Part shown: positions 3,673 through 14,557 of the stretch, one piece after another
Layout of the letters: every line of letters starts with the position of its first letter
How positions within the stretch are numbered: the first letter of the stretch is position 1
NCBI GenBank assembly: GCA_018066285.1
Contig: JAGHRS010000045.1
Coordinates: 1 to 47,082, forward strand
DNA length: 47,082 nt
Source: Candidatus Treponema caballi
GTDB lineage: Bacteria > Spirochaetota > Spirochaetia > Treponematales > Treponemataceae
Direction of reading: 5' to 3'
Translations under genes and position numbers: made by a program
The notes under the pieces: generated by a model
Databases searched by the model: none
What the model was told of the DNA's origin: nothing
Seen by the model: only the letters and a program-made list of their open reading frames with translations

Positions 3673-5880
3673 ATGGAAAAGCACATATCCAATACATTTA
3701 CACTGGGAGACCTGACCGCCCGGTACATCATTGAAGAAAATGGACGACCTGTCCTGGACCTCATCCCGACTTCAAAGCTCGGTGATGTTGTAGAACTAAA
3801 AAAATCAAACGGAGACTGCCTTGTCCAGTGTAAGCTGATCGGTGACCAGTATCCGACCGGCTATTCGGGCGGCGTTACGCTCAGAAACAGCGGCACCGTG
3901 GACCACATGCACCTGGTAAAGCAGGATGTACGTAAGCTCACGGATGAGATAAGCGGCAAGCCCCGCACCGAGATTGACACCATCCTTGCAGATGACGCGC
4001 ATCACACATGGATTCACACACTCGGCTTCACGGAAGGAGAGCCGTGCGTTGATTCAAAGACCACGTTCATTAACGGGGAACTGGGGGACGGTTCTCTGGG
4101 ACCAGGGGACGGTTCTCTAGTTACTGGACCAGGGGACGGTTCTCTGGTTCACGACATCATCCCCGCACCAGGGGACGCTTCTTTGGAACTGCTCTCCAGT
4201 TTCAGTCTCAGCAACATAACGCCTTTTTCTGAAGGCGAATCACATAACAAGGTGAAGATCCACCGCATCCGCAGCAAGTGGAGTGACGAAGGCTGGCTCA
4301 TCAGTGAGACCGCTGAGTCGCTCCAGCTTGAACCTGCGTGGGCGTACTGGCCCGCAAAGTCAATCCGCTACGGACAGATCGGCACCATGCCGGTCCGCAC
4401 CTTCGCCCCGTTCGGCGCACTTGAAGACACAGAGGCTGGCGTCGTGTGGGCGGCATCTCTTGCCATTGAGTCTTCCTGGCAGATGGAGTTCTACCGCCGT
4501 GACGCGGGCTTCAACTTCTCAGGCGGACTTGCCGACCGCGAATTCGGACATTGGATAAAGACCATTGCCCCAGGCGAAAGCTTTACGACGCCAACTGCCA
4601 TTCTGACAGCCAGCACCCGCGGCGTTGATGACGCCTGTCAGCGTCTGACTTCATGGAACAAAAAGTTCCTCGCTCTTAACCCCGCTTCCGAAGAAAGCCT
4701 GCCTGTCATGTTCAACGAATACTGCACGACATGGGGCACACCGTCTGAAAAGAACATCACCGACATTCTTGATGCGATTGACGGTCACGGCATTGAGTAC
4801 TTTGTCGTAGACTGCGGCTGGTTCCTTGAAGATGGCAAGGACTGGGGCAACTCGATGGGCGACTACATCCCGTCTGATACGCTCTTCCCGAACGGGCTCG
4901 GCGCCGTGACGAAGAAGATTCACGACAAGGGCATGAAGGCCGGCATCTGGTTTGAGATAGACAACATCGGCAAGTTCGCCCACATCTACAATCAGGAAGA
5001 ACTGCTGTTGAAACGCGACGGCCTGGTGCTTGAGACACAGAACAGGCGCTTCTTCGATATGCGGAAGCCTGAGGTAAAAGCATATCTCACGGAACGCGTG
5101 AACGGCACGCTCAAAAAGTACGGCTTTGAGTACATCAAGATGGATTACAACGACACGTACGGTCTTGGCTGTGACGGCGCGGAATCACTTGGTGAAGGAT
5201 TGAGGCAGGACAGGGAAGCATCGCTCGACTTTGTGCGTGCCCTGAAAAAAGACATTCCAAACCTTATCATAGAAAACTGCGCTTCCGGTGGCCACAAGAC
5301 AGAGCCGCTCATGATGTCGCTCGTAAGCCAGGCCTCGTTCAGTGACGCGCATGAATGCACGAACATTCCGGTAATCGCCGCAGCACTCCACAGGACGATA
5401 CTGCCCCGCCAGAGCCAGATCTGGTGCGTCATCAGAAAGACCGACTCGCTCAAGCGGCTCGCCTACTCTGTCGCGGCTACGTTCCTGGGCCGCATGTGCT
5501 TTTCTGGCGACGTGACTGAGCTTACAAAAGAGCAGTGGGCAAAGATTGATGAGGGCATCACGTTCTACAAGCGGATTGTACCGGCAATAAAAGATGGCTA
5601 CACCTGGTTCTTCGGCGACCGCGGCCCCGCTGCCCGTAAGCTCGAAGGCTGGCAGGGCATTCTGCGGCAGGGCGGCGGCGTCACGTACCTGACGGTGCAC
5701 GTGTTTGACAACGCACCGCGCTCGTTTGCGATTGACCTGCCGGAAGAAGTTGCCGCATCACTGAAAGAAGGCATCGTCGGAGAGTACAAGGGCACCGGTA
5801 TAAGCGCAATGCTTTCAGACAGAACGCTCACCGTCACCCGCGACGAGGATATGGAAGCGCTCGCCCTCATACTGCGATAA
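3673..5880 (+). CDS. GH36 alpha-galactosidase with 36-residue repeat-derived insertion
   Basis: Releases alpha-1,6-galactose from raffinose-family oligosaccharides or galactomannan. At 735 residues it matches large GH36 enzymes: N-terminal beta-supersandwich, TIM barrel, C-terminal beta domain. The nucleophile motif KMDYN places Asp at about residue 491. ENCASGG and the SDAHE acid/base motif (Asp about 558) are present. There is no signal peptide. TATACT ends seven bases before the ATG and no Shine-Dalgarno is present, so the mRNA may be leaderless. Residues about 137-172 are a glycine/aspartate-rich insert encoded by four in-frame repeat copies, just before the conserved LELLSSFSLSNITPF. The catalytic barrel is untouched, so activity is plausible. 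Confidence 0.94.
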   Translation: MEKHISNTFTLGDLTARYIIEENGRPVLDLIPTSKLGDVVELKKSNGDCLVQCKLIGDQYPTGYSGGVTLRNSGTVDHMHLVKQDVRKLTDEISGKPRTEIDTILADDAHHTWIHTLGFTEGEPCVDSKTTFINGELGDGSLGPGDGSLVTGPGDGSLVHDIIPAPGDASLELLSSFSLSNITPFSEGESHNKVKIHRIRSKWSDEGWLISETAESLQLEPAWAYWPAKSIRYGQIGTMPVRTFAPFGALEDTEAGVVWAASLAIESSWQMEFYRRDAGFNFSGGLADREFGHWIKTIAPGESFTTPTAILTASTRGVDDACQRLTSWNKKFLALNPASEESLPVMFNEYCTTWGTPSEKNITDILDAIDGHGIEYFVVDCGWFLEDGKDWGNSMGDYIPSDTLFPNGLGAVTKKIHDKGMKAGIWFEIDNIGKFAHIYNQEELLLKRDGLVLETQNRRFFDMRKPEVKAYLTERVNGTLKKYGFEYIKMDYNDTYGLGCDGAESLGEGLRQDREASLDFVRALKKDIPNLIIENCASGGHKTEPLMMSLVSQASFSDAHECTNIPVIAAALHRTILPRQSQIWCVIRKTDSLKRLAYSVAATFLGRMCFSGDVTELTKEQWAKIDEGITFYKRIVPAIKDGYTWFFGDRGPAARKLEGWQGILRQGGGVTYLTVHVFDNAPRSFAIDLPEEVAASLKEGIVGEYKGTGISAMLSDRTLTVTRDEDMEALALILR
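4083..4185 (+). repeat. Four tandem repeat copies inside the alpha-galactosidase gene
   Basis: Copies at about 4083-4098, 4099-4121, 4126-4149 and a degenerate one at 4167-4185, all sense. The third pairs along its full length. The fourth has GGGGACGCTTCTTTGG, two changes in the core. All are read in one frame (GDGSL, PGDGSLV, PGDGSLV, PGDASL), which suggests local tandem expansion with the reading frame kept. Confidence 0.9.
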
Positions 5881-6976: not shown

Positions 6977-8347
6977 ATGTCAGATTCAGCAGCAACTCAG
7001 CTTCAGGAAAACAAGATGGGCACCATGCCCGTCGGAAGACTCATCTTCTCAATGTCCATCCCGATGATGATTTCAATGCTCGTACAGGCACTGTACAACA
7101 TTGTCGACAGTATCTTCGTCGCCCAGATTTCAGAAGATGCGCTCACCGCAGTTTCCCTCGCCTTTCCTATCCAGAACCTGATGATAGCCGTTGCAGTCGG
7201 TACTGCAGTCGGTGTCAACGCATTGCTTTCACGCCGCCTTGGTGAGAAAAACCAGGAGGATGTCGATAAATGCGCAGGAAACTCGCTGTTCCTTTCTGCC
7301 GCAAGCGCAGTAGTATTCATCATTCTGGGCTTTACCATTCCGCGCTTCTTCTTTGAAACACAGACAGACAATCCGGCAATCATTGAGTACGGCGTCACCT
7401 ACCTTTCTATCTGCATGATCTGGTGTCTTGGCGTTTTCTGCTCAATCACACTGGAACGCCTGCTTGCCTCAACAGGACGCACCGGCCTTTCCATGGCGTC
7501 ACAGCTTGTTGGCACCGCGTTCAACCTGGTGTTCGACCCGCTCCTGATTTTCGGTTACTGGGGCTTCCCGAAAATGGGCATTGCCGGTGCCGCAATCGCA
7601 ACCGTCATGGGCCAGTTCGCCGCAATGATTACATCGCTTATCCTGAACCTGAAATACAACAAGGATATCAACTTCAAGCTGAAGAATCTGCTGCCTGATG
7701 GCCGCATCATCAAGGGGATTTACTCAGTCGGTGTTCCGTCAATCCTGCTGCAGTCAGTAGGTTCCGTCATGGTCTACATCCTGAACATGATCCTCGGTAC
7801 CTTCTCATCAACAGCAATCGCTGTATTCGGCGTCTACTTCAAGCTGCAGAGCTTCATCTTCATGCCGATTTTCGGTCTGAACAACGGCGTCGTTCCTATC
7901 ATCGCCTACAACTTCGGTGCCCGGAAGAAGAGCCGCATCAAGCGAGCTGTCCTCGTGGGAACCATATCCGCATTCTGCATCATGTCAGTCGGAACGCTCA
8001 TCTTCGAGCTTCTTCCAGGCTGGCTCCTCGGCTTCTTCAATGCGTCAGAGCAGATGCTTTACATGGGCATTCCGGCCCTGCGCATCATCGCCGTCCACTT
8101 CCCGATTGCCGCAATCTGCATCATCTTCGGTTCAGTTCTGCAGGCGTTTGGCGAAGGCGTAAAGAGCATGATCGTAAGCTTCATCCGCCAGCTCGTCGTT
8201 CTGCTGCCGGTCGCATGGCTGCTCTCACTTACCGGCAACGTAAACGCCGTCTGGTGGGCATTCCCGATTGCAGAAACTGCGTCACTCACCTGCACGCTCA
8301 TTTTCTACAGCGGACTCAACAAGAAGTACCTGAAGAGCATGCAGTAA
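6977..8347 (+). CDS. MATE-family multidrug/Na+ antiporter
   Basis: A 456-residue inner-membrane exporter of the NorM/DinF class, expected to expel cationic drugs or metabolites with Na+ or H+ influx. It has about twelve hydrophobic segments. The first carries the MATE signature: PMMISMLVQALYNIVDSIFV, with the second repeat half starting near GVPSILLQSVGSVMVYILN. The start is the ATG eight bases after AAAGGA. It has its own strong promoter and is followed by two hairpins, so it is probably monocistronic. It resembles the second MATE gene at 20291 only at family level. Confidence 0.92.
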   Translation: MSDSAATQLQENKMGTMPVGRLIFSMSIPMMISMLVQALYNIVDSIFVAQISEDALTAVSLAFPIQNLMIAVAVGTAVGVNALLSRRLGEKNQEDVDKCAGNSLFLSAASAVVFIILGFTIPRFFFETQTDNPAIIEYGVTYLSICMIWCLGVFCSITLERLLASTGRTGLSMASQLVGTAFNLVFDPLLIFGYWGFPKMGIAGAAIATVMGQFAAMITSLILNLKYNKDINFKLKNLLPDGRIIKGIYSVGVPSILLQSVGSVMVYILNMILGTFSSTAIAVFGVYFKLQSFIFMPIFGLNNGVVPIIAYNFGARKKSRIKRAVLVGTISAFCIMSVGTLIFELLPGWLLGFFNASEQMLYMGIPALRIIAVHFPIAAICIIFGSVLQAFGEGVKSMIVSFIRQLVVLLPVAWLLSLTGNVNAVWWAFPIAETASLTCTLIFYSGLNKKYLKSMQ

Positions 8348-8391
8348 TCAACCGCAAACGGTTGATTTTTGAGTTTTCCTTCGGAAAACTC
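8346..8391 (+). terminator. Tandem hairpins after MATE gene
   Basis: AATCAACCG (8346-8354) pairs with CGGTTGATT (8359-8367) over loop CAAA and runs into five T residues, overlapping the stop codon. Immediately after, GAGTTTTCC (8371-8379) pairs with GGAAAACTC (8383-8391) over loop TTC. The first is a fair intrinsic terminator. The second lacks a T-tail and may be a stabilising or repeat hairpin. Confidence 0.65.
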
Positions 8392-8438
8392 AACGGGTTC
8401 TATCTGCTTTTAAAAAACATCTGATTTTCTCAATGAAC

Positions 8439-8616
8439 GGAGGGGTGGGAACCTGCCTGCCGTCTGTGTCTATGCGTCGTCCTTCCGGCGCAGCTGTCCT
8501 GTCACAGTCGGCGGCAGGGTGAACGCGTATACCTGCCGATACTGCGCCATGCCAGCAGCGCCTCCGGACGCCACACAGCCCCAGCCGTACGGCAGTCTCC
8601 CACCCCTCCTTTCTTT
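8439..8616 (+). ncRNA. Candidate structured RNA of about 175 nt, class unknown
   Basis: The stretch closes on itself through nested helices. GGAGGGGTGGGA (8439-8450) pairs with 8598-8609, CTGCCGT (8457-8463) with 8589-8595, CTGTGT (8464-8469) with 8573-8578, GCGTC (8474-8478) with 8567-8571. GGCGC-A-GCTG (8487-8496) pairs with 8553-8562, CAGT (8505-8508) with 8541-8544, and CGGCAGG (8512-8518) with 8532-8538. The outer stem is followed by TTTCTTT on the plus strand. It does not carry the SRP, tmRNA or RNase P motifs I know. A 92-codon minus-strand reading frame across it is judged spurious. The remaining bases of the 8348-8686 gap show nothing else. Confidence 0.6.
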
Positions 8617-8686
8617 AAATAAGGCATATCTGCTTTTTTTTACGGGGATGCGCTCGGGCGGGGATTGCTTTCTGAACGCGTAGATT

Positions 8687-9193
8687 TTACACTTCGATTG
8701 CGTAGTACTGGCTGACTTTGCCTTCCTGGTAATTCTCGTTTTCTGCAATCAGGATGCCGCCGCATTTTCTGATTGTCGCACCGGATGCGATATTGTCCTT
8801 GTAGCAGCCGAGGATGACTTTCTTCATGCCCTTCTCTTTGCAGACAGAAAGAGCGTACTCGAGCATTTTTGTGGCATATCCCTTTCTGCGTTCAGAGGGC
8901 CGCACGCCGTAACCCACATCACCTATGCTGTCAGATAAATCTTTCGGAAGCTCGTAGCGCACGCTCAGAAGGCCGATGATTCTATCCCCTTCAAGGCACA
9001 CGAAAACAATGGATCTGCCCCACTCAGGAGTGCCTGAATCCGCATTCGAGCGTATTTTAGTAAGCCAGTCAGCATACTCCATTACGGGAAGGCCCATACT
9101 CGCGGATATGCCCTGTTCGCCATTGTCGTAATGCTCCTGCACGTACTCCTTGAGCGCTTCTTCGTCTTTTTCTTCCGGCAATCTGAACTGCAT
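8687..9193 (-). CDS. GNAT-family N-acetyltransferase
   Basis: A 168-residue single-domain acetyltransferase. The region GDRIIGLLSVRYELP is the central beta hairpin, VGYGVRPSERRKGYATKMLE is the acetyl-CoA binding loop, and CYKDNIASGATIRKCGG is the C-terminal motif in which a residue near Asn caps the cofactor. The arrangement resembles small-molecule or RimJ/RimL-like members, but the substrate is not predictable. GGGGAG lies eight bases before the ATG. It faces the next gene divergently; the 9194-9434 gap between them holds two repeat copies. Confidence 0.85.
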   Translation of the reverse strand: MQFRLPEEKDEEALKEYVQEHYDNGEQGISASMGLPVMEYADWLTKIRSNADSGTPEWGRSIVFVCLEGDRIIGLLSVRYELPKDLSDSIGDVGYGVRPSERRKGYATKMLEYALSVCKEKGMKKVILGCYKDNIASGATIRKCGGILIAENENYQEGKVSQYYAIEV

Positions 9194-13813: not shown

Positions 13814-14557
13814 ATGCCAAGAAAAGCCAGGGTCCTCTGCGATAGCAGGACATATCACGTAATGATCAGAGGTATCAACAGACAGTCCATCTTTGAAGAC
13901 GAAGAAGATAAAAGCACATTTCTTTCATTGCTGGTACGCTATAAACAAAAATGTCATTTCAAGCTGCTTGGATATTGCATGATGGGAAATCATGCACATT
14001 TACTGATAAAACTTGGGGATTTTGAACTACAATCCGTGTTCAGACGAATAAATACAGCGTATGCGTATTATTTCAATTTGAAATATGACCGTACCGGGCA
14101 CCTTTTTCAGGATAGATACAAAAGCGAACCTGTCACATCTGACAAACAGCTTCATCAAGTCTTGCGATACATCCATCTGAATCCCGTCAAGGCAGGAATC
14201 TGCTCAAATCCAGAGAAATTCAAAGACAGCAGCTATCAGGATTACTTAAAAGGAAAATCCTCACTGGTTAACACCCACATGATACTTTCGATAATGTCAA
14301 AAACGAGGCTGAAGCAATTCACAGCAGAGCAGAATCAGGACTGTTTTATGGATAATGAATCCAGACGGATTTTTCGGGTTACCGACAAGAAAGCAAAAGA
14401 AATAATATGGATGACATTCGGAGGAAATTCTGCAGCGGATTTCCAAAGACTTGGAAATCCATGGAATTATCTTGTTCTGATGAAACTCAGAAAAAAAAGG
14501 ACTGTCAATCAATCAAATAAGCAGATTAACAGGAACGTCGCGACGTATGGTCATTGA
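13814..14557 (+). CDS. REP-associated tyrosine transposase (RAYT, Y1/HUH family)
   Basis: A 247-residue single-strand DNA transposase-like enzyme of the IS200/IS605-related Y1 superfamily. The HUH motif is H60-A61-H62 within MMGNHAHLLIK. The RAYT-typical GHLFQDRYKSEPV and LRYIHLNPVKAGI follow, the latter holding the likely nucleophile Tyr119. The C-terminal 90 residues are basic and may bind the target hairpin. All key residues are intact and the frame is unbroken, so it is probably active or recently active. GGAG lies seven bases before the ATG. Same-orientation repeat copies flank it, two upstream and one downstream, and there is no paired transposase end of the IS200 kind. Known RAYTs are single-copy domesticated enzymes that act on REP hairpins. 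Confidence 0.93.
   Translation: MPRKARVLCDSRTYHVMIRGINRQSIFEDEEDKSTFLSLLVRYKQKCHFKLLGYCMMGNHAHLLIKLGDFELQSVFRRINTAYAYYFNLKYDRTGHLFQDRYKSEPVTSDKQLHQVLRYIHLNPVKAGICSNPEKFKDSSYQDYLKGKSSLVNTHMILSIMSKTRLKQFTAEQNQDCFMDNESRRIFRVTDKKAKEIIWMTFGGNSAADFQRLGNPWNYLVLMKLRKKRTVNQSNKQINRNVATYGH

Follow-up and report, generated by a model that had tools for sequence, protein, structure and literature searches.

Background

REPs are dispersed intergenic palindromes that lie near gene 3' ends, occur in inverted pairs and contain G.T pairs in their stems, and some of their families are species-specific (PMC3733652). By definition, a REP is a palindrome of 20-40 bp, one end of which carries an unpaired GTAG or CGTC tag (PMC3733652). 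YPAL/RU-2, RU-1 and other MITE-like repeats of enterobacteria are non-coding, mobile sequences of about 100-170 bp, and RU-2 is reported in 60 intergenic regions (PMC2759123).

In the present study, we analyzed a 47,082-nt stretch of DNA from Candidatus Treponema caballi (contig JAGHRS010000045.1, positions 1 to 47,082; hereafter, the window), in which a sequence-only reading had proposed a candidate structured RNA, class unknown, on the plus strand. We found that the hairpin at this locus is one copy of a previously unlisted dispersed repeat, not a one-off RNA gene. The repeat resembles REPs, BIMEs and REPINs in being an intergenic palindrome located at gene 3' ends, in its inverted pairs and in its G.T pairs, but it measures about 230 nt in the window, its GTAG-like sequence lies inside the stem and it has no matching RAYT. 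In size, YPAL/RU-2 is closer to it than REPs are; compared with YPAL/RU-2 by description only, the repeat may differ in the extreme turnover of its stems with constant apex and loops and in its captured gene tails. The copies are also similar to attC sites, as imperfect palindromes after stop codons in which pairing is more conserved than sequence; however, the conserved part of the repeat is the apex, not the ends.

Results

Folding of the sequence and of its shuffled versions gave a single rod-like fold of nested helices at 8439-8616 on either strand, and none of 200 shuffles matched its stability; the hairpin described earlier is real. Of the two strands, minus gives the more stable fold (-106.5 kcal/mol, z -8.1); the plus strand, chosen in the sequence-only reading, reaches -90.1 kcal/mol (z -5.7). 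The extent of about 170 nt given there does hold a hairpin, but alignment of the arms showed that the complementary inverted arms reach beyond it, to 8412-8638 (~227 nt). The T-rich tract reported on the plus strand is present (CCCACCCCTCC-TTTCTTTAAATAA), and the gap said to follow a MATE gene is indeed there, as the hairpin lies between convergent MATE and GNAT genes. The features of the locus are as follows.

6977..8347, plus strand: MATE transporter gene (Pfam PF01554), the stop codon of which faces the 3' end of the element
8412..8638, minus strand: entire repeat copy, a long imperfect palindrome, family 1 (arm alignment score 32; shuffles, mean 9 and maximum 12)
8431..8440, minus strand: 3' end motif CCGTTCATTG, a relative of the CCCGTTC found in several other copies
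8468..8580, minus strand: core (covariance model R1, 106.5 bits; the window copy is among the five used to build R1)
8483..8486, minus strand: GGAA (GNRA-type), 3' side of the conserved 3x4 internal loop (from the sequence)
8512..8539, minus strand: type-1 apex, TCGGCAGG - loop - CCTGCCG (invariant or nearly invariant in five aligned copies; a sixth copy was obtained by the R1 search)
8563..8565, minus strand: 5' side of the conserved 3x4 internal loop, here GGA; most other copies have GUA (from the sequence)
8609..8622, minus strand: 5' end motif TTATTTAAAGAAAG, immediately outside the main stem and recurring in several copies; on the plus strand, this sequence forms the T-rich tract
8687..9193, minus strand: GNAT acetyltransferase gene (Pfam PF13302 and PF00583), convergent and ending 5' of the element

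The MATE gene has its own terminator-like hairpin at 8346-8367, and thus a terminator role for the giant hairpin is not needed in the window.

Rfam gave no family at the gathering score anywhere in the window, in agreement with the earlier view that no known motif fits. The length had been likened to that of 6S RNA with its hallmark lacking, and the Rfam 6S model gives no match even at E up to 10. TD-2 RNA (RF03162) leaves the hairpin itself unmatched. With the threshold relaxed, the closest match of note is a sub-threshold TD-2 match (34.2 bits; gathering score, 48.7) at 8342-8418 on the minus strand, which overlaps the MATE stop codon and adjoins the hairpin. The genome contains about 12 TD-2 matches, several of which have their end at the stop codon of a gene on the other strand, a positional habit like that of the giant hairpin; TD-2 differs from it in being smaller, with three short hairpins and a different sequence.

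Further copies of the hairpin were found when the source genome, a 75-contig draft, was searched at the DNA level. R1, the covariance model made from five type-1 copies, recovered six copies with this apex (TCGGCAGG...CCTGCCGCC) and, more weakly, a second apex type. The type-2 apex is longer, with the consensus UCGGCCCCGAG-hairpin-CGAGUGAGAUACC(A/U)UAGCGCCG, and R2, the model of copies with this apex, located 23 copies. Altogether, 29 copies were located, six with apex type 1, including the window copy, and 23 with type 2. Thus, of the earlier proposal, the structure and the lack of an Rfam match stand, whereas the idea of a single RNA gene does not. The copies have a common core and differ in their outer stems, in which complementarity is nevertheless kept; arm complementarity was far over that of shuffles in 24 of the 25 copies tested. 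Palindromes of this kind were absent from three large contigs that were scanned (C24, C63 and C47; 394 kb). Head-to-head pairs of copies occur in C17, C30, C35 and C61, with a spacing of about 200-340 nt, and in C7 (about 650 nt). Exact matches to the type-2 apex were on the plus strand of their contigs in 14 of 16 cases, which is unexpected under arbitrary contig orientation.

The sequence-only reading had named covariation as a check, and among the related copies it is strong. In type 1 (five copies), 18 of 40 predicted pairs have changed on both sides with pairing retained. The type-2 copies were aligned after trimming (MAFFT on untrimmed copies misaligned the arms). In the 20 copies so aligned, 84.9% of the cells were paired, compared with 58.1% after shuffling and 27-47% with slid partners, the covariation score was 0.628, compared with 0.172 (sd 0.023) for shuffled and 0.07-0.17 for slid controls. 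A separate count with whole-arm swapping agreed, with 74% paired, compared with 44% (maximum 54%); since the copies are related and their arms possibly homogenized, the shuffle figures are not strict probabilities. In the stem just below the type-2 apex, all 10 pairs have changed on both sides among the 20 copies. Covariation beyond both shuffled and slid controls, a criterion for structured RNA, is thus found in the repeat. Between copies, the stem sequence turns over completely while pairing persists, and the apex and the GUA/GNRA internal loop remain constant. In type 1, the shared 3x4 internal loop has GUA (GGA in the window) facing GNRA (GGAA, GAGA or GGGA); in many type-2 copies, GUA faces GUAA, GAGA or GAA, with exceptions. 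G.U pairs numbered 94 on the element-sense strand and 53 on the other (nominal p 0.0009), an excess that is only suggestive, being weak per copy (15 copies lean one way and six the other, with two tied). Together, the conserved loops and the G.U bias point to the minus strand for the window hairpin.

The final codons of the adjacent gene frequently recur, in inverted orientation, in the outermost 5' arm. When gene tails were scored against all copies, the gene's own element was the best match in about half of the cases, and a score of at least 12 was reached by nine of 19 element-adjacent genes and by one of 484 control genes. The copies C36:3457 and C36:7141 have about 75-79 nt of flank in common on each side, and one of these flanks includes the coding tail, ending AAKLDAFIFK, of the gene beside C36:7141. 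C17:4796 and C35:61263 are the products of a recent duplication, and most of their differences are in the outermost arms. Thus, the outer arms are related to the locus and can travel with the element.

With respect to neighbouring genes, the 3' end of the repeat usually lies close to a stop codon on the opposite strand: in 19 of 28 copies, such a stop (open frames of 110 codons or more, with gene ends taken from open reading frames, not from curated annotation) follows downstream, 52-192 nt from the start of the apex. When the count was limited to copies with a frame of 150 codons or longer on a single side, the stop was on the 3' side in 16 and on the 5' side in three (two-sided sign test, about 0.004). 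In two copies from a same-genus genome (G005) with a clear neighbouring gene end, this end is on the 5' side; thus, the placement rule may not hold across species.

As judged from sequence searches, the repeat family is lineage-restricted. R1 had no match among 58 relatives, and the type-2 apex pattern, with 16 matches in the source genome, was absent from the 389 further genomes searched in the order; these first-look searches miss copies, and absence elsewhere reflects their sensitivity and is no proof. Among 39 relatives, R2 gave four weak matches (22.8-26 bits), all in G005, where long hairpins carry an apex of the CGAGUCAAAUACC type, as in the source genome, and at least two of the four have the GUA/GNRA loop (GUA/GAAA, GUA/GAGA). 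In samples of three other relatives (1.06 Mb), R2 found no match, and a palindrome scan gave just five inverted repeats, all unrelated. Plasmids, phages and viral contigs that were searched had no match to the repeat. A pattern search of genome contigs gave two matches in unrelated phyla, which R1 does not recognize.

Discussion

We think it reasonably probable that the repeat is a lineage-restricted palindromic family, similar to REPs or MITEs but of unusual size and with an RNA-like architecture, which is probably mobile, with arms that template switching has probably extended and with probable transcription as a 3' hairpin. Each copy would probably be a non-autonomous element, comparable to a REP or MITE of very large size, spreading by a process that recognizes the fold. 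The copy number, the recent duplicates and the copies with common flanks suggest such a spread; against it, a dedicated transposase for the repeat was not found in the genome. As for the features of MITEs, inverted arms are present, no autonomous partner was identified and no target-site duplication was recognized among the flanks of the copies. In the same-genus comparison, neither a clean empty site nor a target-site duplication was demonstrable, the relatives being too divergent (the proteins compared are only about 50% identical). The outer arms have probably been lengthened and homogenized by template switching during replication, which would explain the inverted copies of the last codons of the adjacent gene. 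After insertion, the hairpin is probably co-transcribed with the adjacent gene and may provide it with a terminator-like or protective 3' end. It is rather unlikely that the repeat is a new kind of mobile hairpin, which would use its folded apex, in the form of RNA or single-stranded DNA, to insert at the ends of genes, would prime copying of the tail of the host gene during insertion and would thereby carry captured gene ends from locus to locus.

Constant apex and loops over covarying stems are the usual sign of a structured RNA, and the copies might be paralogous genes for small RNAs, trans-acting or protein-binding, encoded on the element-sense strand (minus in the window). The purine-rich GUA/GNRA and GAGUGAGAUACC loops on that strand and its surplus of G.U pairs agree with this explanation, which we nevertheless regard as doubtful: no promoter-like site was found beside the window copy, the outer arms, which are specific to their locus, extend over gene tails, and the G.U bias of individual copies is weak. 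Alternatively, an ancestral hairpin without a selected function may owe the complementarity of its arms solely to template switching during replication. Such switching is able to generate and preserve hairpins together with compensatory changes (PMC8794818) and is a known cause of quasipalindrome mutation in E. coli (PMC7202029), and the inverted gene-tail copies are consistent with it. However, this process would be expected to remove the asymmetric GUA/GNRA loop as well, and neither the similar apices beside dissimilar adjacent stems nor the multiplication to 29 copies is explained, so that a pure mutational by-product appears improbable.

Many copies follow stop codons and, in the reading direction of the gene, TTTCTTTAAATAA-like tracts come after several of the stems, as would be expected of unusually large intrinsic terminators that each arose in place at its gene. 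We consider this origin very improbable, since the common apex and loops indicate common descent, no such structures are present over the tails of control genes, and at one orthologous gene end in a relative the terminator is of the ordinary kind. The palindromic, probably mobile family thus remains our preferred reading.

Covariation is the basis on which structured RNAs are discovered, and here it is very strong within a repeat whose arms also take up copied pieces of the adjacent genes. The family therefore offers a natural test of selection versus template switching as the source of compensatory changes. If the repeat is mobile, it would represent a REP-like element of very large size, recognized through a complex fold and with no known enzyme, and it would supply many genes with a strong 3'-end hairpin.

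Several described systems were rejected as the identity of the repeat. A REP is excluded by size and tag, as the arms span about 227 nt and GUAG/GGAG is within an internal loop, not terminal. For integron attC sites, RYYYAAC/GTTRRRY boxes were not seen at the copy ends (compared by eye), and no match to the integron integrase (TIGR02249) exceeded the cut-off. Mobilization by a RAYT was likewise rejected, the single Y1_Tnp gene of the genome being surrounded by a different short repeat, GGGGACGGTTCTC. This gene, the sole Y1 (RAYT-like) transposase gene, is at 13814-14557 on the plus strand of the window, with GGGGACGGTTCTC copies on both sides. With at most one mismatch, GGGGACGGTTCTC occurs at 29 places from 1509 to 25643 in the window, compared with 0.04 expected; it resembles CGTC-tagged REPs, and some copies are within open reading frames (for example, 4084-4144, encoding GDGSL peptides). 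Of the reverse transcriptases of the genome, one, which has an Avd-like gene as its neighbour, appears to be of the DGR type, and the other is truncated by the end of a contig; neither of them has a link to the repeat. The former (L119; G000 C56:4413-4988, minus strand), with its small Avd-like neighbour, is a probable diversity-generating retroelement. Another palindromic repeat family, composed of TACCATGA and TAAAATACTAGAATT units, was observed in L099 (about 6790), L100 (about 8410) and L051 (about 13090).
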